From positions 1 through 64,000 of the forward strand of contig CAMCXS010000019.1 of NCBI GenBank assembly GCA_945883495.1: a stretch of 64,000 bases of DNA. Direction: 5' to 3'. This document shows positions 12,379 through 25,063 of this stretch, in pieces. The notes beneath the pieces are model-generated. The model had not been told where the DNA came from and made no database searches. It saw nothing but the letters and a program-made list of their open reading frames with translations. The DNA comes from Akkermansia muciniphila (lineage in GTDB: Bacteria > Verrucomicrobiota > Verrucomicrobiia > Verrucomicrobiales > DEV007). The position numbers and the translations under genes are program-made. Each line of letters begins with the position of its first letter. The first letter of the stretch is position 1.

Positions 12379-15300
12379 TTAAGCGACATCCAGCATTCGC
12401 TTCCGGTACCATTCCCGATGACTCTGCCGATCCGCGAGTTCCGCGTTTACCACGGATTCGTAAAATGGACGGAGGATTGGATCGGCAGCATGGCGAGCGA
12501 CTGCCGCCTGAGCCTCATGCAAAAAGTAGCCGTGCGGTTCCTTCAGTTCACCATTCTTATAGGAACGGGAATCGCTCGACTGGGAGAGAAGGGATTCCAT
12601 GCGCACCCGAAACTCACTTTCGAACCGTCTGATCTTCTGCAACACCTGCCTGATAAACTCTGGATAGCGGAAAACAATCGTCGCGCCGTCGAAGCGAATT
12701 AGGTTCACGATGCGCTCAATTTCCCCCGGGACGGTCGTTTCCGTGAGCCAACCATTGAGAAGGTCAATGCCGGCATCGCTCGGAACCACAACGGCTTTGA
12801 ACAGGATTTCCCACCAACCACGAAGTTCATACGGGTTCGTGCGGCACTGCTGAAGGATAAATCTCGCAATGCCCGCAAAGTCTGGACTCTCCCTCAGCTT
12901 GCCGAATGCCACTCGCTCGTGGAGATGATGCATGATCGGCTGATAGCCCACATCGTGCCCCTCGATCCGCAACATCTCGAATCGTCGAATGCGCTCGACG
13001 AAGAATTCGTAGACCTCACGAGGATCATGCTGCGCGGCACCGTAGAGAAACAGAGGATAGGGGGAATCACTTAGATCCGGAAGCAACGTCATGCGCTTCA
13101 GAATTCGGGAAACCGTCGCCGTCATGATGCGATCCGCCCCGCCCTCGACTGTGTCCCCAAGCATCGTCACCAGAGTAGCTACGCTTTGGTCCGACAAGCG
13201 TTCCACCGGAAGAATGTCTAGATAACTCCAACCCCACCCATCCGGACATTCGATGGCCCGGGACAAGGCGGCAATGGCGGCGTTGGCTTTCTTACTGGAA
13301 ATGTTTCGATCGGATAGCAGCGGCAGCAACACAGCCAGGGTCTCTGGCCCCGGAGGTTCCGGACCAATCGGCCAATCCCATAACGCCGCTTCATAGATCA
13401 CGGACCGGCTCGACTTCAGTCCGGCCGCGAGCCACTGATCCTCCTGTTGAGGCGTCGGGCGCATTCCTCGAATGAGCACCGTGAAATGGGCATCCAAAAA
13501 GCCAAGACTGGACCGGGGAAGCTCTTCAATCAACTCCTGCACAGCATCAGGCGCTTGTTCCGCCAAGCACAGTAAAATTGGCCCCCAGTTGGGAGCATAG
13601 CCTCGTGCTCGCGCCTTGGATTCGAATTCTTGCAAGTCCCCGATTAGATCCCGGACCGACGGATACCGCCGCAGGGATTCGGAAACCCATCGTTCAGCCA
13701 TCGATCGCCATTCCGCCCGGACGATGTCCCAAGCGCTTCGAGCCTCGGAGCGTTCCTGATCGAGCAGACTATGATCCTGACTTCCCAGTGTGATGCGGGC
13801 AAGATCAAACGCCCTTCCTCGGCGGAGCATAGCAATGGCCGCTCGCCTCGCTGCGGCGATGACCGGATCTGCTTCCCAATGTAGATCCTTACGAAGCAGC
13901 CGGAAGACGGCAAATTGGATGAACTCACTCTTGGGCCAACGCTCGGCTATGAATTGCAAGAGTTCGACCGCACGTTGGCGCGGCTCTCGCCATTCCTTAT
14001 GGATCTCCGCAATGGTTTGATCATCGTCAAAGCGGTAGGCTTCAACAATCCGTTCCAACGCCTCATCAAGAACCGGGAGGATGTTCAACGCGGCGACCTC
14101 CGACCGAGTCACCAAGGACGTTTCGATGAAATCAAACGTCCGGTCGCGCAAGCTTCTGGTTTGCTCCACCGGCACCAGGCAGGATTGAAACGTGACTATG
14201 TGGTCCTCAAACCATGACTGAGAGAACGATCGTGCGAACAATCCGGCCAAGGCTAGCGCGAAAAACTCCGAGCGCCGGTTCACCAGATCATCGTTCTCAG
14301 GGAGCTCGGTGCGATCGGACACCCAGTCCAGCAGTTCATCAGTCACCCGGATGCACTTCCCCGTCGAAAAAGCCCCAACTTTGCCTATGACGACCCAAGG
14401 GTGGTCAGTTTCGCGACGATCCACATCCTGGATCTTCTTCCAGTCCTTACCCAGCCTGGCTAGAAGGTCCAACGCGTCCCACTGATGTTTCCGATGGTAA
14501 GTGGCGATGGATTCAAGAATCCCGGGTAATCGCTGCAGGACGCGTTGGTGAGAATTGACCGACTTTCCCCAACCATCTCGCATAAACGGATCCTCAGCCT
14601 CTGGAGCATCGGGGTGATCAATGACAAATCGGGTCAGCTTGATCGACTCTTCCGGCAGAAACACGGCGAACCCGGCCCACGCCTCCAACATTCGCTCCCG
14701 CTCCCAGTGGTAGCTTTTTTCGAACCGCTCCAGAAATTGCGTCCACAACGGGCCGGTCAGGTCTAGTTCTTCCGCACCGCTAGAACGTCCATGCCATTGC
14801 GCCTCCGCGAGGTTCCGCAGCAGAGCAGCCCAATGATCCTGGCCAAACAGGTCCAGCAGCTCATCGACAAACAGCGCCGCTTGGCCATTTCGAACGCACG
14901 ATGTGTAGACCAAGTGATCCGCGAACAAATCAGGGCTTACCCTCAAGCCAGTACGGGTCCGAATCACCAATTCCGCCGCTTCCAGCCGGCTCAGGCGATC
15001 CTCCAGAACCGAGCCGCGAAGTTCCATGAAGCGGGCCAGCGATTGCATGGATTCCCTAGAGTCCGGGAACGGAGCCAGCACCGCGACTGTCCGGAGAAGT
15101 CGTTTTAATTCCTCGCGGCATCGAGGGTCATCTTCCGCCAACCTCGCTAGATTTTCATCCTCGAACCGCCGGAAGACCAAAGCCCGGAAGTCTTCATGGT
15201 CAACGAAGCTTTGAAAGTCGAGACCGTCCTTGATGAGTTTTCCACCCAGCACAACGATCAATGGGCACCGGTCCGACCACTCCGCCAAGGTTCCAGCGAA

Positions 15301-16371
15301 AGCCTGTGCGGGATGTCCGGACAGCACCTGTTCCGCCAGCTCCCGCATTTCGGTCTCCGTCAGGCGGGGGAGCTTTTCACCCATCTCGATCGAGTCTGCG
15401 TCAAAGCCAGATTCCCGTAGCTTCGCGCGAATCGCTTCCACCGCTTGCGGGCGCGCTGCGAGAATCAATTTCGCCGACGGATTTCTCGCGATCGCGCTCA
15501 AGACACGAGGACGGAGGGTTTCGATGCGATGGGCGTCATCCTGAACCACCACGAGCGGATGGTCCGTGCCGATGAATTCAAGGGACGTCTCCTCCGCATC
15601 GGCACTCGCCCGATCGCTTACGAAACGGAGGTCGGCTTCGGGGTGAAGAAGCGGAAAGCGATCGGCAAAGGCCTTTAAGATGCGGCTCTTTCCTTCTCCG
15701 CCACGCGCCACAAGGAGGCGCACCTTGCGCTCATAGGGTGCTGCGACAAAAGCCTCAAGTTCCTCGAGAGCGCTCTGCCTCCCGACGAGCGGTGTGTTGT
15801 GGGTGATGCCGGATGTCCCTGCAAAGAATTGATTTGCGGTAACCAACGCTTCGTCGTGGACCGACCCGTACACTGTCTTGGCGATTTCCCGTCCGAAGGA
15901 TCGCTCGATGATCTCCCTGCCCCGTGCTGGCCGGACACGGGTTCGAAAATGACTGTCCAGGGTCTCTGCGGTCCAGAAGTGCCATTTGCTTTGCTTGTCG
16001 ACATAGTCGATCGCCTCCGCTTGACAGCCGTTGGTGGCAATCACCACGAGAAAATAATGTGCCGCCGCGTAGGATGTCTCGGCAACGGCCACTTTGGACT
16101 TCGCCAATGTCCAACGATTGCGCTGACCGTGGGTCTCAAGCTTGCATTGAAACGCCCAGACCTCGCCCCCCTCCACCTCGGCGCGAATATCGACGCCCTT
16201 TTGTTTCCCTCCCCTTTTGTCGTAGGGCACCGCGCTGAGGATACGTTTCTCCTCGACACCCGCCGGCCCATCGACCGGGAGGGAAACTCCCGCATTGAGG
16301 AAATCCACCATGAATTCCTCAAGTCCCTCCCACGTGAAATCTGGGGATTCGAACGGGATGCGACGCACCAT
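12379..16371 (-). CDS. Large nuclease-like/NTPase protein, candidate defence effector
   Basis: 1330 residues from the ATG at 16371 (MVRRIPFESPDF); the ORF upstream of this Met lies antisense to the divergent ATPase gene. Residues 10-170 look like a PD-(D/E)XK (Mrr-like) nuclease: helix Glu in FTWEGLEEF, Asp61 in KGVDIRAEV and Gln75-x-Lys77 in WAFQCKLE. Residues 195-320 form a P-loop NTPase with Walker A VARGGEGKSR (Lys228, Ser229), Walker B LVVVQDDAH (Asp278/Asp279) and LILAARPQA, an arrangement typical of STAND/AAA-type NTPases. The remaining ~900 residues are helical and repeat-like, as in sensor regions of Avs-type STAND proteins. By analogy the C-terminus may sense a trigger and the N-terminus may cut DNA. 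Specific family and activity are inferred, not shown. Confidence 0.65.
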   Translation of the reverse strand: MVRRIPFESPDFTWEGLEEFMVDFLNAGVSLPVDGPAGVEEKRILSAVPYDKRGGKQKGVDIRAEVEGGEVWAFQCKLETHGQRNRWTLAKSKVAVAETSYAAAHYFLVVIATNGCQAEAIDYVDKQSKWHFWTAETLDSHFRTRVRPARGREIIERSFGREIAKTVYGSVHDEALVTANQFFAGTSGITHNTPLVGRQSALEELEAFVAAPYERKVRLLVARGGEGKSRILKAFADRFPLLHPEADLRFVSDRASADAEETSLEFIGTDHPLVVVQDDAHRIETLRPRVLSAIARNPSAKLILAARPQAVEAIRAKLRESGFDADSIEMGEKLPRLTETEMRELAEQVLSGHPAQAFAGTLAEWSDRCPLIVVLGGKLIKDGLDFQSFVDHEDFRALVFRRFEDENLARLAEDDPRCREELKRLLRTVAVLAPFPDSRESMQSLARFMELRGSVLEDRLSRLEAAELVIRTRTGLRVSPDLFADHLVYTSCVRNGQAALFVDELLDLFGQDHWAALLRNLAEAQWHGRSSGAEELDLTGPLWTQFLERFEKSYHWERERMLEAWAGFAVFLPEESIKLTRFVIDHPDAPEAEDPFMRDGWGKSVNSHQRVLQRLPGILESIATYHRKHQWDALDLLARLGKDWKKIQDVDRRETDHPWVVIGKVGAFSTGKCIRVTDELLDWVSDRTELPENDDLVNRRSEFFALALAGLFARSFSQSWFEDHIVTFQSCLVPVEQTRSLRDRTFDFIETSLVTRSEVAALNILPVLDEALERIVEAYRFDDDQTIAEIHKEWREPRQRAVELLQFIAERWPKSEFIQFAVFRLLRKDLHWEADPVIAAARRAAIAMLRRGRAFDLARITLGSQDHSLLDQERSEARSAWDIVRAEWRSMAERWVSESLRRYPSVRDLIGDLQEFESKARARGYAPNWGPILLCLAEQAPDAVQELIEELPRSSLGFLDAHFTVLIRGMRPTPQQEDQWLAAGLKSSRSVIYEAALWDWPIGPEPPGPETLAVLLPLLSDRNISSKKANAAIAALSRAIECPDGWGWSYLDILPVERLSDQSVATLVTMLGDTVEGGADRIMTATVSRILKRMTLLPDLSDSPYPLFLYGAAQHDPREVYEFFVERIRRFEMLRIEGHDVGYQPIMHHLHERVAFGKLRESPDFAGIARFILQQCRTNPYELRGWWEILFKAVVVPSDAGIDLLNGWLTETTVPGEIERIVNLIRFDGATIVFRYPEFIRQVLQKIRRFESEFRVRMESLLSQSSDSRSYKNGELKEPHGYFLHEAQAAVARHAADPILRPFYESVVNAELADRQSHREWYRKRMLDVA

Positions 16372-16407
16372 CTTGCAGAATACCGCTAGGCCCCCTAGTT
16401 TGCAACG
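16372..16407. promoter_or_regulatory. 36-bp divergent intergenic region with inverted repeat
   Basis: The two start codons face away from each other with 36 bp between them. The gap contains an inverted repeat CTAGG-CCC-CCTAG at 16386-16398. There is not enough room for two separate full promoters and leaders, so the promoters must overlap or extend into coding sequence, or the messages may be leaderless. The inverted repeat could be an operator shared by both genes. Confidence 0.5.
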
Positions 16408-17583
16408 ATGCTGCCCCATGTCGAACGCCGCCGTCTGCACCAGCGGATCGTCGAAACCAGCCGAAGATATCCAATCACGTCCGTTCTCGGGGCCCGGCAG
16501 ACTGGGAAGACCAAGCTGGTGCGGCCATTTGCCAGCTCCCCAGATCACTTTTTCGACCTGGAAGACGCAAATGACTTCGTTCGACTCTCGGACAATGCCC
16601 TCTCCGTGCTCGGAGACTTGCGTGGGCAGGTGGTCATTGATGAAGCGCAGCGATTGCCCGACCTGTTTCCGACGCTTCGAGTTCTCGCAGACCGTCCCGA
16701 TCTTCCGGCCCGCTTCATTATCACCGGAAGCGTCTCCCCGGCTCTGGGCCAGCGGATTTCCGAAAGTTTGGCAGGACGCAACGGCAAGATCGAAATTGGA
16801 GGGTTGGATCTGGCGGAGGCGGGCTCTGAACAGTGGAGGACCATGTGGCTCCGAGGCTCCCACCCGTCATCGTTCCTCGCGCCGACCGATGCCGATGCGA
16901 GTGATTGGCGTGAACAGTACCTCACGGATCTGATTGGCACGGACCTTCCGGCGTGGAGTGGCGTAAAGCTCTCTCAGTTTGAGGCACGCAAACTGTTGCA
17001 GATCATCGCGGACGCATCCGCCAGAACCTGGAATGATCAAGAAGCGGCAAAAACTCTTCAGGTTCCGGTAAAAGCGATTCGCGGATACGTTGAAGCGCTC
17101 AAGGGAGCCTACATCATTCGCGAGCTTGCGCCCCTCATTCCCAACCTCCGCAAGCGACTCCGGCAGCAACCCACTCTCGTGGTCAAGGATGCTGGAATTC
17201 TCCATAGCTTGTTGGGCATACCGGACTCCAGGCGTCTTGAAGCACATTCTCACAAAGGGCATTCATGGGAATCGTTCGGCGTTGACCAGATCATCCGGTT
17301 GACGGAGACACTGGATCACCAGTGCTTCAAATACTCGGTCGAGAACGCTGAGGAGGGGGATCTCGTCTTGGAACGTCCCGATGGCCGGATCGGTTTTGAA
17401 TTCAAGTCAGCCGACGCTCCCAAACTGACCAAATCAATGACAGCGGTCGTTGCCGATCTAGACCTTGAAGCTCTTTACGTCGTCCACCCAGGAACCAAGC
17501 GCCGGGGAATGGGAGATCGGATTGAATCCGTGGGGATCGAACGCATTCCCGAACTTTGCGCCTCCATCCGAGCAAAAGTCTGA
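16408..17583 (+). CDS. AAA (AAA_14) ATPase with DUF4143 domain
   Basis: 391 residues. The P-loop is the family-specific GARQTGKTKL (residues 28-37; the G-x-R-Q-x-G-K-T form). VVIDEAQRLPD (75-85) is the Walker B with the D-E-A-Q signature, and FIITGSVSP is sensor 1. The C-terminal half matches DUF4143: HSHKGHSWESFGVDQI, then GDLVLERPDGRIGFEFKSA, in which the Asp and the Glu-x-Lys have the spacing of a PD-(D/E)XK nuclease-like core. Between them lies a winged-helix-like segment. The family is widespread, and its biochemical role is not settled; links to DNA processing and mobile or conflict systems have been suggested. It is divergent from the 1330-aa nuclease/NTPase gene 36 bp away. Confidence 0.82.
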   Translation: MLPHVERRRLHQRIVETSRRYPITSVLGARQTGKTKLVRPFASSPDHFFDLEDANDFVRLSDNALSVLGDLRGQVVIDEAQRLPDLFPTLRVLADRPDLPARFIITGSVSPALGQRISESLAGRNGKIEIGGLDLAEAGSEQWRTMWLRGSHPSSFLAPTDADASDWREQYLTDLIGTDLPAWSGVKLSQFEARKLLQIIADASARTWNDQEAAKTLQVPVKAIRGYVEALKGAYIIRELAPLIPNLRKRLRQQPTLVVKDAGILHSLLGIPDSRRLEAHSHKGHSWESFGVDQIIRLTETLDHQCFKYSVENAEEGDLVLERPDGRIGFEFKSADAPKLTKSMTAVVADLDLEALYVVHPGTKRRGMGDRIESVGIERIPELCASIRAKV

Positions 17584-17660
17584 CAGCTGCCTCGGCTAGA
17601 GGTTGCAGGTCGCCGTCGACAGATAGCCTGACTGCTTCCATCCTCTGCCACTTCTTTTCC

Positions 17661-17762
17661 GGGCTCTCGGGCTCTCGGGCTCTCGGGCTCTCGGGCTCTC
17701 GGGCTCTCGGGCTCTCGGGCTCTCGGGCTCTCGGGCTCTCGGGCTCTCGGGCTCTCGGGCTC
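17661..17762. repeat. 8-bp tandem repeat GGGCTCTC, about 12.5 copies
   Basis: Twelve consecutive perfect copies of GGGCTCTC occupy 17661-17756, with a partial copy to 17762. The array starts 78 bp after the AAA/DUF4143 stop codon. Because 8 is not a multiple of 3 the array is open in several frames and produces Pro/Arg/Glu/Ser-rich pseudo-proteins on the minus strand. Not coding in my view. Confidence 0.95.
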
Positions 17763-17774
17763 GTAACCACCCAG

Positions 17775-18184
17775 CCTTCCGGAAAATCCGCAAACCGAAT
17801 TCTGTGCTCCCCGCGCCCTCCGGAAAATCCGGAGACCCAATTCTGTGCTCCCCGAGCCTTCCGGAAAATTCTGAAGCCGAATTCTGTGCTCCCCGCACCT
17901 TCCGGAAAATTCTGAGACCGAATTCTGTGCTCCCCGAGCCTTCCGGAAAACTCTGAGACCGAATTCTGTGCTCCCCGCACCTTCCGGAAAATTCTGAAAC
18001 CGAATTCTGTGCTCCCCGGGCCTTCCGGAAAATTCTGAAACCAAATTCTGTGCTCCCCGCGCCTTCCGGAAAATTCTGGGACCGATTTCTGTGCTCCCCG
18101 ATCCTTCCGGAAAATTCTGAGACCAAATTCTGTGCTCCCCGCGCCTTCCGGAAAATTCTGAAGCCCAATTCCGTGCTCCTGGCA
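17775..18184. repeat. 41-bp tandem repeat array, 10 copies
   Basis: Ten head-to-tail units of exactly 41 bp start at 17775, 17816, 17857, 17898, 17939, 17980, 18021, 18062, 18103 and 18144. Each begins CCTTCCGGAAAA (containing the palindrome TTCCGGAA), continues through GAATTCTGTGCTCCCC (containing GAATTC) and ends in a variable CGNN. Units differ at a few positions, and the first two and the last are the most diverged. There is no unique spacer, so this is a minisatellite rather than a CRISPR. The array stays open in all three minus-strand frames because 41 is not divisible by 3. It lies between the AAA ATPase and the channel gene. Confidence 0.95.
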
Positions 18185-18199
18185 TCGTGCCTATGGCAT

Positions 18200-18316
<117 letters not shown>

Positions 18317-18470: not shown

Positions 18471-20942
18471 ATGATCCGTTCCCGTAAAGTCGTGCTGTTC
18501 ATCTTGGCCGCGCTCCTTGCCGTGGGCGCCGTTCTCTGGGTTTTGGGCGTTCGATCCGGTCAGGGCAGATTCGGCTCGAAGCGCGACATCGAGGTGGCAC
18601 TCTTGGCCCGCTCCAAGGGCAACTTCACCGACCTGCACACCATCTGCCTGAATCTGTTGTTCGATGAGCTCAATCGGCAAGGCATCAATGGCGGCGCCAG
18701 CCGGTTGGTGCTGCGCACCTTCGATTTGAAGAGCCTGCAAGAGAAGCACGGCGAGACGCCGCCCTACGAGGCCATGCTCAAGGAGAATCCAAATTTGGCC
18801 GCCATTCTCGACAACACCTGGGGCAACGATCTCCAGAAGTCCCAGAATGTGATCCGCAAAAAGCAGATCCCCGTCATCTCGCTCAACGCCGACCGCACGG
18901 CCGACTTCGGACAGTCCGTTCTCTTTTTGGGCAGCCAGAACATGGTGACCACCAAAATCGCCAGTTTCATCGATCAAGCGCTTTACACACCGTCGTCGCC
19001 GGCCGCGCCGACTTCCCCATTCGATGCCCTCTCGGCAACGCCCCCTCCGAGCCCAGTCCGGCCAATGGTCATGTTCCTGACGGAGGAAGGCTATGGCGCC
19101 GGGACCGCACCGGCCCGAGGAGAGCCGGTGTATCTCTATGAGAGTGAACTCGCAAAGCTGAATATCCCGATCGAAGCGAAGATCTCCTTCGTTGAAGAAA
19201 AATACGACAACGAGGCAGAGCAAAAGCGGGTCACTGAAGACGTACTCCGCGCCCTCAAACAATCGGGGTCGCGGGAAATCATCGTGGTCATCAATGCCCA
19301 CAAACAATGGGGCTCGCGCTTGGTCGCCAGGTTTGAAGAGTTCGCCTCCAACAACCGGGACCGCGCCATCCGGGTGATTGGCCACGACTCGATCTTCAAT
19401 CAAGCCATCCACGACTCCGTCCGCGAAGCCACCGACGGCGATGAAACCATGAACTTCGAGATGGTCCTCATGAAGGCACCCAACCCGGAGTTCTCCACGC
19501 ACACCTTCGCTCTCTATCAAAGCGTGGTCGATGCCCATGGCGGCGCCTTCGACGATTATCCGAAAGAGGTCGCCTCGATCTTCGTCCGGCGTTGCGCGGT
19601 TTCCGCGGAGCTGCTGCGTCACAGCCTGAAAGACTTCGACCGTCTCGACCGGCAAGCCGAAGGCGCCAACTGGAACGCAAAGTCCCGGGTCGAGAAAGAC
19701 CGTGCCCTCCTTGTCGATGAGTTTTCCCAGCTCGTCGCGCCTCTTCCGGCAGCTCCGGGCGCCCCTCGCCAACGCACGGGCGCGCATGTCGAACTGGGTG
19801 CCCTTGGCTTGGTCCACTTCAACCGGGACGGGGAAGAGGACGGCAGCCACTACTTTGAACTGCACAAACCGGGGAACCGTGCCATCGCGCACCTCAAGCA
19901 ACTCAACGCCGACAACAAGCTCATTCCCGCCCTGCAGATCGGAATCAATGAGTTCCAAATCCGCCGGGTCGATGTCGAGCGCGGCGAGTTCGATGCCGAA
20001 TTCATCTGCTCCACCACCATCAATTCCAGCCTGAAAAAGAGTGTGCTTCTCGAGATGAAGGCCATCCGCAAGGAAGAGGAGCTGGACGAACCGATTCCGG
20101 AAGAAGAGAGCGCTACGGGCGATCCCCGCGGCCGTTTGGTGCAGTATCCCATGCTTTCCGGCCTGCTCTCCATTCCCAACATGCGGGCCGATGGTTCCGT
20201 GGCCCAGATCGGCCAGACCGACCGCAGCGTCGATCAAACGGAATACCGGGTCTACAAAGTGCGCGGCACCTTCGCGGCGGACCTGAACACGGTCCGGTAT
20301 CCGTTCGACAGCCACCGCATCGGCGTGGAACTCCAGGCCGCGGTTCCCGACCACTTGCTTACGCTCACCGCGCAACGAGTCGAATCAACCGCGTTCGAGG
20401 AGAACCAGCGCGGCTGGATTCTCAAGTGGATCCATGGCTTGGTCGACAACCGCGTGGCCAATGGCAATCCGCTCGCCATGTCGGATCACCGGACGGAAAC
20501 CCGTCAGTTCAAGGAATTCGCGATTATGGTGGGCGTGAAGCGCAACCTATTGCAGCCCATGCTCGTGGTGATGCTTCCCTTAATCCTCCTCGGCCTTGCC
20601 GCGATTGGGATTCTCTACCTTGGGGAAAAGGAGACCATGGGCAAATCCCCCAGCGAGCTCGCGATGGGGGTCGTCCTCGCTGTCGTCGCCTACTCCATTT
20701 CGTACGCGGACGTGGTGCCCCGGAGCGGCGGCGGGACTCACTCGGACCTGCTCTACCTCATCACCACCCTGATGTGCATGGGCAACTTCGGCGCCGTCCT
20801 CGTCTTTGGGGAGTTGGGGAACCCCAGAACGCGGCACGATACGGTCGATCGCTGGCGCTTCCGCTACGCCCTAGGCGTTACGATCTGCTATGCGCTCTTT
20901 TTGGTTTACTGGGGGACGAGCAGCAATCTCTGGCCAGTCTGA
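18471..20942 (+). CDS. Periplasmic-binding-protein/pentameric ligand-gated ion channel fusion
   Basis: 823 residues. Residues 7-26 form a signal or anchor helix. Residues 38-400 resemble a type 1 periplasmic binding protein: IEVALLARSKGNF, AILDNTWGND, KQIPVISLNA, then a second lobe with REIIVVINAHKQWGSR and IRVIGHDS. After a linker, residues 485-690 look like the beta-sandwich of Cys-loop/Pro-loop receptors, with VRYPFDSHRIGVEL (608-621) matching the conserved Y-P-F-D-x-x loop. Four C-terminal membrane segments follow: M1 694-717 after KRNLLQPML, M2 727-748, M3 757-780 and M4 797-815. Inference: a ligand captured by the binding domain gates a cation or anion channel in the inner membrane. Bacterial homologues with extra N-terminal domains are known. 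Convergent with the ATP-grasp gene. Confidence 0.8.
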   Translation: MIRSRKVVLFILAALLAVGAVLWVLGVRSGQGRFGSKRDIEVALLARSKGNFTDLHTICLNLLFDELNRQGINGGASRLVLRTFDLKSLQEKHGETPPYEAMLKENPNLAAILDNTWGNDLQKSQNVIRKKQIPVISLNADRTADFGQSVLFLGSQNMVTTKIASFIDQALYTPSSPAAPTSPFDALSATPPPSPVRPMVMFLTEEGYGAGTAPARGEPVYLYESELAKLNIPIEAKISFVEEKYDNEAEQKRVTEDVLRALKQSGSREIIVVINAHKQWGSRLVARFEEFASNNRDRAIRVIGHDSIFNQAIHDSVREATDGDETMNFEMVLMKAPNPEFSTHTFALYQSVVDAHGGAFDDYPKEVASIFVRRCAVSAELLRHSLKDFDRLDRQAEGANWNAKSRVEKDRALLVDEFSQLVAPLPAAPGAPRQRTGAHVELGALGLVHFNRDGEEDGSHYFELHKPGNRAIAHLKQLNADNKLIPALQIGINEFQIRRVDVERGEFDAEFICSTTINSSLKKSVLLEMKAIRKEEELDEPIPEEESATGDPRGRLVQYPMLSGLLSIPNMRADGSVAQIGQTDRSVDQTEYRVYKVRGTFAADLNTVRYPFDSHRIGVELQAAVPDHLLTLTAQRVESTAFEENQRGWILKWIHGLVDNRVANGNPLAMSDHRTETRQFKEFAIMVGVKRNLLQPMLVVMLPLILLGLAAIGILYLGEKETMGKSPSELAMGVVLAVVAYSISYADVVPRSGGGTHSDLLYLITTLMCMGNFGAVLVFGELGNPRTRHDTVDRWRFRYALGVTICYALFLVYWGTSSNLWPV

Positions 20943-24775: not shown

Positions 24776-25063
24776 ATGGAACTGATGGTCAGAAAGGGCG
24801 GAATGCGTCGGCGATTCCGCTACGAGAATGAATTCTGAGTAGCAGAATTCCCAAGAATTCTGAGTAGCGGAATTCCCAAGAATTCTGAGTAGCTGAATTC
24901 CCAAGAATTCTGAGTAGCGGAATTCCCAAGAATTCTGAGTAGCGGAATTCCCAAGAATTCTGAGTAGCGGAATTCCCAAGAATTCTGAGTAGCGGAATTC
25001 CCAAGAATTCTGAGTAGCGGAATTCCCAAGAATTCCGTTCCAGCGTCCATCACAATCATTCAC
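24776..25063 (+). repeat. Palindromic repeat element, copy B, with expanded 25-bp array
   Basis: Same element as at 24545, with the unit GAATTCTGAGTAGCGGAATT+CCCAA expanded to eight copies (24830-25029, period 25 bp). The right end shares ATCACAATCATTCAC with copy C, so the element is at least eight bases longer on that side than in copy A, where the duplication junction cuts it. Units 1 and 3 differ by one base each (AGCAG, AGCTG). The region is open in all three minus-strand frames because 25 is not a multiple of 3; these frames are not genes. Confidence 0.92.

Follow-up and report, generated by a model that had tools for sequence, protein, structure and literature searches.

A divergent pLGIC subunit with a provisionally assigned type 1 periplasmic-binding-protein head in a verrucomicrobial genome

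Introduction

The gene at 18471–20942 on the forward strand of the window, the whole 64,000-nucleotide stretch of DNA analyzed here, raises the question of whether a channel of the pLGIC (Pro-loop receptor) family, which also includes the neurotransmitter-gated channels of animals, can be joined to a periplasmic-binding-protein (PBP) domain, and how such a protein would work. An initial annotation had read it as an ion channel subunit fused to a binding-protein domain. We refer to the encoded protein as P0001 and consider in turn the gene, its channel half, its head, its relatives, and the mechanism that these features suggest.

Results

The gene and its surroundings

The open reading frame, single and intact, occupies exactly 18471–20942 (+), begins with ATG and has 823 codons; the assembly carrying the window comprises 6.46 Mb in our whole-genome search. 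Its features are as follows.

18471–20942, + strand: complete gene for an 823-aa pLGIC subunit with a fused PBP-type head (ORF list, orthologues, hydropathy)
18489–18545, + strand: N-terminal hydrophobic helix, residues 7–25, signal peptide or uncleaved anchor (hydropathy; sequence by eye)
18582–19898, + strand: predicted type 1 PBP-like domain, residues ~38–476 (fold match for modeled residues 33–436; 437–476 by eye)
18981–19058, + strand: Pro-rich insert inside the PBP domain, residues 171–196 (38–48% identity between orthologues)
19923–20540, + strand: predicted pLGIC ligand-binding-type beta-sandwich, residues ~485–690, with the Pro-loop YPFD at 20298–20309 (profile matches, hhalign, alignment)
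20541–20939, + strand: predicted four-helix channel domain M1–M4, residues ~691–823 (profile matches, hydropathy, alignment)

The only full-length orthologues found, at 79–81% identity, come from the two further genomes of the genus that were sampled (Verrucomicrobia bacterium REEB427 and V1-115). Across the three orthologues, dN/dS (NG86) is ~0.1 or below in each of the PBP head, linker, ligand-binding domain (LBD) and TM domain (TMD), and the Pro-rich insert that splits the PBP domain is the sole drifting part. Because orthologues persist at this identity and purifying selection acts throughout, we conclude that the ORF is a genuine gene, maintained in all of its domains. The signal helix proposed at the N-terminus corresponds to the hydrophobic helix at residues 7–25; inspection by eye for a clear cleavage site revealed none, and the helix may be either a signal peptide or an uncleaved anchor.

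Three convergent genes, encoding an ATP-grasp protein, an EamA transporter and an HGSNAT-type acyltransferase, lie 3' of the P0001 gene. This trio is syntenic at both orthologue loci, while the genes upstream of P0001 differ. A search of the locus and of the orthologue loci for an operon partner in transport or signaling identified none, and nothing about the placement of the gene suggests an operon.

The surrounding DNA has further features of its own. Dense tandem repeats occupy 17660–18313, just 5' of the gene (8-bp CGGGCTCT in 13 copies, a 41-bp unit in 10 and the 6-bp ACGAGC in 5), and a 25-bp tandem repeat, GAATTCTGAGTAGCGGAATTCCCAA, occurs eight times with 98% matches in the intergenic region 24830–25035. 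An ORF of 1494 aa at 12379–16863 (–) gives a weak STAND-NTPase match and is possibly a defense-type gene. Its true start is probably downstream of the listed one, since the ORF as listed overlaps, in its 5' part, an AAA_14/DUF4143 ATPase gene encoded by the opposite strand (16408–17583, +).

The C-terminal half is a predicted pLGIC module

When the single P0001 sequence was searched against Pfam, NCBIfam and, with phmmer, the PDB, nothing significant was found; the best PDB match was nAChR beta, with an E-value of 0.61 and over the right region only. A profile built from 12 simple pLGICs, with the window family and a second headed protein from the same genome (P0002) left out, scored 41 bits against P0001 over residues 592–784, whereas none of 400 shuffled copies exceeded 2.7. 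Alignment of the channel half to simple pLGICs with hhalign gave an E-value of 4.4e-8, and a profile including P0002 matched ELIC at 3.1e-9 and DeCLIC at 4.0e-7. In the reverse direction, a profile built from the channel halves of P0001 and its two orthologues, searched against class-wide genomes, recovered two Pfam Neur_chan_LBD proteins, at loci L032 (3e-9) and L033 (1.3e-6). These comparisons show significant homology between the P0001 channel half and pLGICs, strongest over residues 592–784. The initial annotation had named the lack of a pLGIC match over residues 485–823 as the outcome that would speak against it; two profile methods and the reverse search are each significant.

The landmarks of the family are present in order. 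The Y-P-F-D noted earlier at residues 610–613 is real and falls in the Pro-loop column common to 14 simple pLGICs; as an [FY]PFD motif, Y610–D613 aligns with 15 other pLGICs. The proposed M1–M4 spacing likewise agrees with four hydrophobic segments at 697–715, 731–749, 760–778 and ~797–818. Along these four TM helices the protein carries the pre-M1 arginine (R691), the M1 proline (P703), the hydrophobic 9' gate (L736), A740 at 13', the M2–M3 loop proline (P750) and D759 in M3, and these residues, together with P611 and D613 of the Pro-loop, are shared by all or all but one of the 18 alignment rows.

Pore residues and the canonical ligand site

M2 spans approximately residues 728–747 and presents E2', G6', L9', A13', I16' and D20'. 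This numbering derives from alignment to ELIC and the prime numbers of its pore, and the register at the inner mouth is uncertain owing to K725 and a four-residue M1–M2 insertion. Both E729 (2') and D747 (20') are acidic and do not vary among the three orthologues, which suggests that the channel is probably cation-selective.

The loop D tryptophan of the canonical ligand site is present in all 14 simple pLGICs compared, and is replaced by isoleucine in the three window-family orthologues and by histidine in P0002. An aromatic loop D residue of this kind is common in pLGICs and not strictly defining. A third headed protein, P0005, from a distant genome of the phylum, appears by eye to retain the tryptophan (LWYKW), which weakens the PBP fusion as a cause of its loss, as P0005 is fused too.

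The head is provisionally assigned a type 1 PBP fold

The N-terminal half had been assigned to the type 1 binding proteins at residues 38–400. Sequence methods gave this reading no support: Pfam returned no significant match, and against PBP profiles built from sets of 6 and about 16 proteins the head scored no better than shuffles. Support came from its fold and from two proteins of the same plan. A low-confidence model of residues 33–436, computed from the three orthologues (mean pLDDT 50, pTM 0.36), shows alternating strands and helices, with pLDDT about 55–80 over the first lobe. In Foldseek, the top matches (E ~2e-7, probability 1.00) come from type 1 binding proteins and from receptor domains of the ANF type, the latter including those of metabotropic glutamate receptors, and the matches listed are overwhelmingly of these two folds. 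A VIA comparison with the Leu/Ile/Val-binding protein (LIVBP, 1z15) gave a Z-score of 10.9 and an rmsd of 5.3 Å over 261 residues (model residues 6–353). The TM-scores, at 0.25–0.45, are modest. The model thus supports, short of proof, a provisional assignment of the head to the two-lobed alpha/beta type 1 PBP fold of LIVBP type. A full-chain AlphaFold model from the three close orthologues reached a pLDDT of 36 and was set aside. A class-wide search with the head returned, beyond itself, one weak match to a protein that looks von Willebrand-type by eye, which we took as chance.

The boundary originally placed at residue 400 probably lies further along. Residues 437–476 (GALGLVHFNRDGEEDGSHYFELHKPGNR) look by eye like the strand pair that closes Peripla_BP_6 proteins; read as a C-terminal strand pair, they would extend the PBP domain to ~476, where it abuts the beta-sandwich. 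Read by eye, the order of elements in the head fits the PBP family, and the invariant-type stretch ILDNTWG...IPVIS can be set against a LIVBP segment that ends in GILMIS. This by-eye alignment places G118 and D141 at the positions of Ser79 and Thr102, through which LIVBP contacts its amino acid; if the register is right, an alpha-amino acid in the usual binding mode is an unlikely ligand.

Headed and simple pLGICs in the phylum

Four pLGICs are encoded in the genome carrying the window: P0001, P0002, a 338-aa form on contig C4 (L010) and a 373-aa form on contig C26 (L051). Two are PBP-headed and two are simple. A single copy per bacterial genome has been described as typical (PMC549065), and this genome exceeds that number. 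P0002, on contig C99, has 718 aa and consists of a Peripla_BP_6 domain (E 4.3e-16) and, C-terminal to it, a region that matches ELIC with a best E-value of 3.8e-5. At its locus (L004 242–3582, –, G000:C99) it is followed by a close same-strand GDSL-type hydrolase gene, and the ORFs overlap slightly only with the listed hydrolase start. P0005 (genome G714) has 714 aa, with Peripla_BP_6 at 3.8e-28 and Neur_chan_memb at 4.5e-4; it lies at L073 1297–3441 (–) and converges with the end of an ORF that by eye resembles an RND-type transporter. Both share the domain order of P0001 and are about 22–27% identical to it in the pLGIC part, but their heads match Peripla_BP_6 clearly, whereas that of P0001 does not. 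In the tree, the PBP-headed forms have a support of 90/91, but long branches meet there, so that their origin in a single fusion event is no more than possible.

Simple pLGICs of roughly 330–400 aa also emerged from searches at the level of family, phylum and class, and the four that were checked were all confirmed by Pfam Neur_chan models. Matches to PF02931 (Neur_chan_LBD) across 388 genomes of the phylum all lie in open frames of 322–425 aa, that is, in simple forms. The same model, searched against the genome carrying the window, missed both P0001 and P0002. Headed forms would therefore be overlooked by a PF02931 survey, and inventories based on Neur_chan_LBD undercount the PBP-headed architecture. 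Scans of plasmids (tblastn) and of viral contigs yielded nothing.

Discussion

Comparison with known systems

Fusions of type 1 PBPs to pLGICs (ART-LGIC) were reported in 2005 in Magnetospirillum and Bradyrhizobium, with a proposed role in chemotaxis (Tasneem et al., PMC549065). Like P0001, they combine an N-terminal PBP-I domain, a pLGIC beta-sandwich and four TM helices; compared by description, P0001 differs in its Pro-rich insert and in a head that sequence methods do not recognize as a PBP. The view that this class is rare rather than new thus holds, and P0001 adds a divergent member to the architecture reported then, not a new class. ELIC and GLIC share its pLGIC core, Pro-loop, 9' and 13' pore residues and four TM helices, but lack an N-terminal domain. 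DeCLIC, according to PMC9897478 and PMC12664993 the one member bearing an N-terminal domain that has been structurally or partly characterized, resembles P0001 in being a prokaryotic pLGIC whose N-terminal domain is large and periplasmic, and is the DeCLIC of the profile match above; its domain, however, consists of two beta-rich lobes instead of a PBP fold. Ionotropic glutamate receptors also place a type 1 PBP-fold domain on a ligand-gated channel. Their pore belongs to a different, tetrameric family, and the likeness is one of plan, not of channel descent.

Proposed mechanism and alternatives

We consider it reasonably probable that P0001 is a pLGIC subunit with a type 1 PBP head that forms a homopentamer, is cation-selective and is gated through its head; its assembly, ligand binding, gating direction and selectivity are inferred. 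The protein would lie in the inner membrane, its head and beta-sandwich facing the periplasm, and its subunits would probably assemble as a homopentamer. Binding of a ligand would close the PBP clefts, and this closure would be passed to the beta-sandwich and from there, through the Pro-loop and the M2–M3 loop, to the 9' leucine gate, altering the passage of ions that are probably cations. A ligand in the head may gate the channel directly. Several results weigh against this reading: the head shows no sequence match to PBPs, its model is of low confidence and that of the full chain poorer still, Pfam does not recognize P0001, the loop D tryptophan is lost, and the gene has no operon partner in transport or signaling.

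An alternative that we regard as rather unlikely retains the pLGIC subunit but makes the head an assembly or modulatory platform without a small ligand, with gating by pH, calcium or membrane signals. It draws on DeCLIC, the one N-terminally extended prokaryotic pLGIC with a solved structure, in which the extra domain is flexible, modulatory and linked to calcium, and on the replacement of Ser79 and Thr102 by G118 and D141 in the by-eye alignment. Purifying selection on the P0001 head speaks against it, as do the intact, recognizable Peripla_BP_6 domains of the other fusions, whose usual role is ligand binding. It is less probable again that P0001 is a receptor without conduction, in which the pLGIC part merely passes on a conformational signal. 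The channel module has diverged strongly (tree branch length ~5), carries the four-residue insertion relative to ELIC and has glycine at 6', all of which would suit such a receptor; yet it keeps the 9' leucine, 13' alanine, acidic 2' and 20' residues, pre-M1 arginine and M2–M3 proline, none of which varies among the three orthologues, and dN in the TMD is low. That P0001 is no pLGIC at all, and instead an unrelated four-helix membrane receptor with YPFD by chance, would fit the Pfam and single-sequence searches, but is contradicted by the independent profiles, the reverse search and the whole motif set in order, and we hold it to be very improbable.

Returning to the reading of P0001 as a channel gated through its head, we offer one extension, tentatively and with some doubt: the agonist site may have shifted away from the beta-sandwich subunit interface, where the loop D tryptophan is lost, to the divergent PBP head, with a ligand that is probably not an amino acid.

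Significance

Our literature search, which covered few subscription papers, found no study of PBP-headed pLGICs beyond PMC549065, PMC9897478 and PMC12664993, none naming Verrucomicrobia, and within the same scope no paper characterizing such a protein. What is new here is that the pLGIC half is demonstrated quantitatively, that the PBP-type head gains support from its fold and probably extends further than first read, that the phylum has two more headed proteins, that the window family and P0002 have lost the loop D tryptophan, and that the standard domain model misses both headed proteins of this genome.

If the agonist site has moved, P0001 would be a nutrient- or signal-gated bacterial channel combining a glutamate-receptor-like plan with a Cys-loop pore. 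The finding bears on the role of the N-terminal domains of prokaryotic pLGICs, among which only DeCLIC has been partly characterized, and the two PBP-headed and two simple pLGICs within one genome form a natural comparison set.
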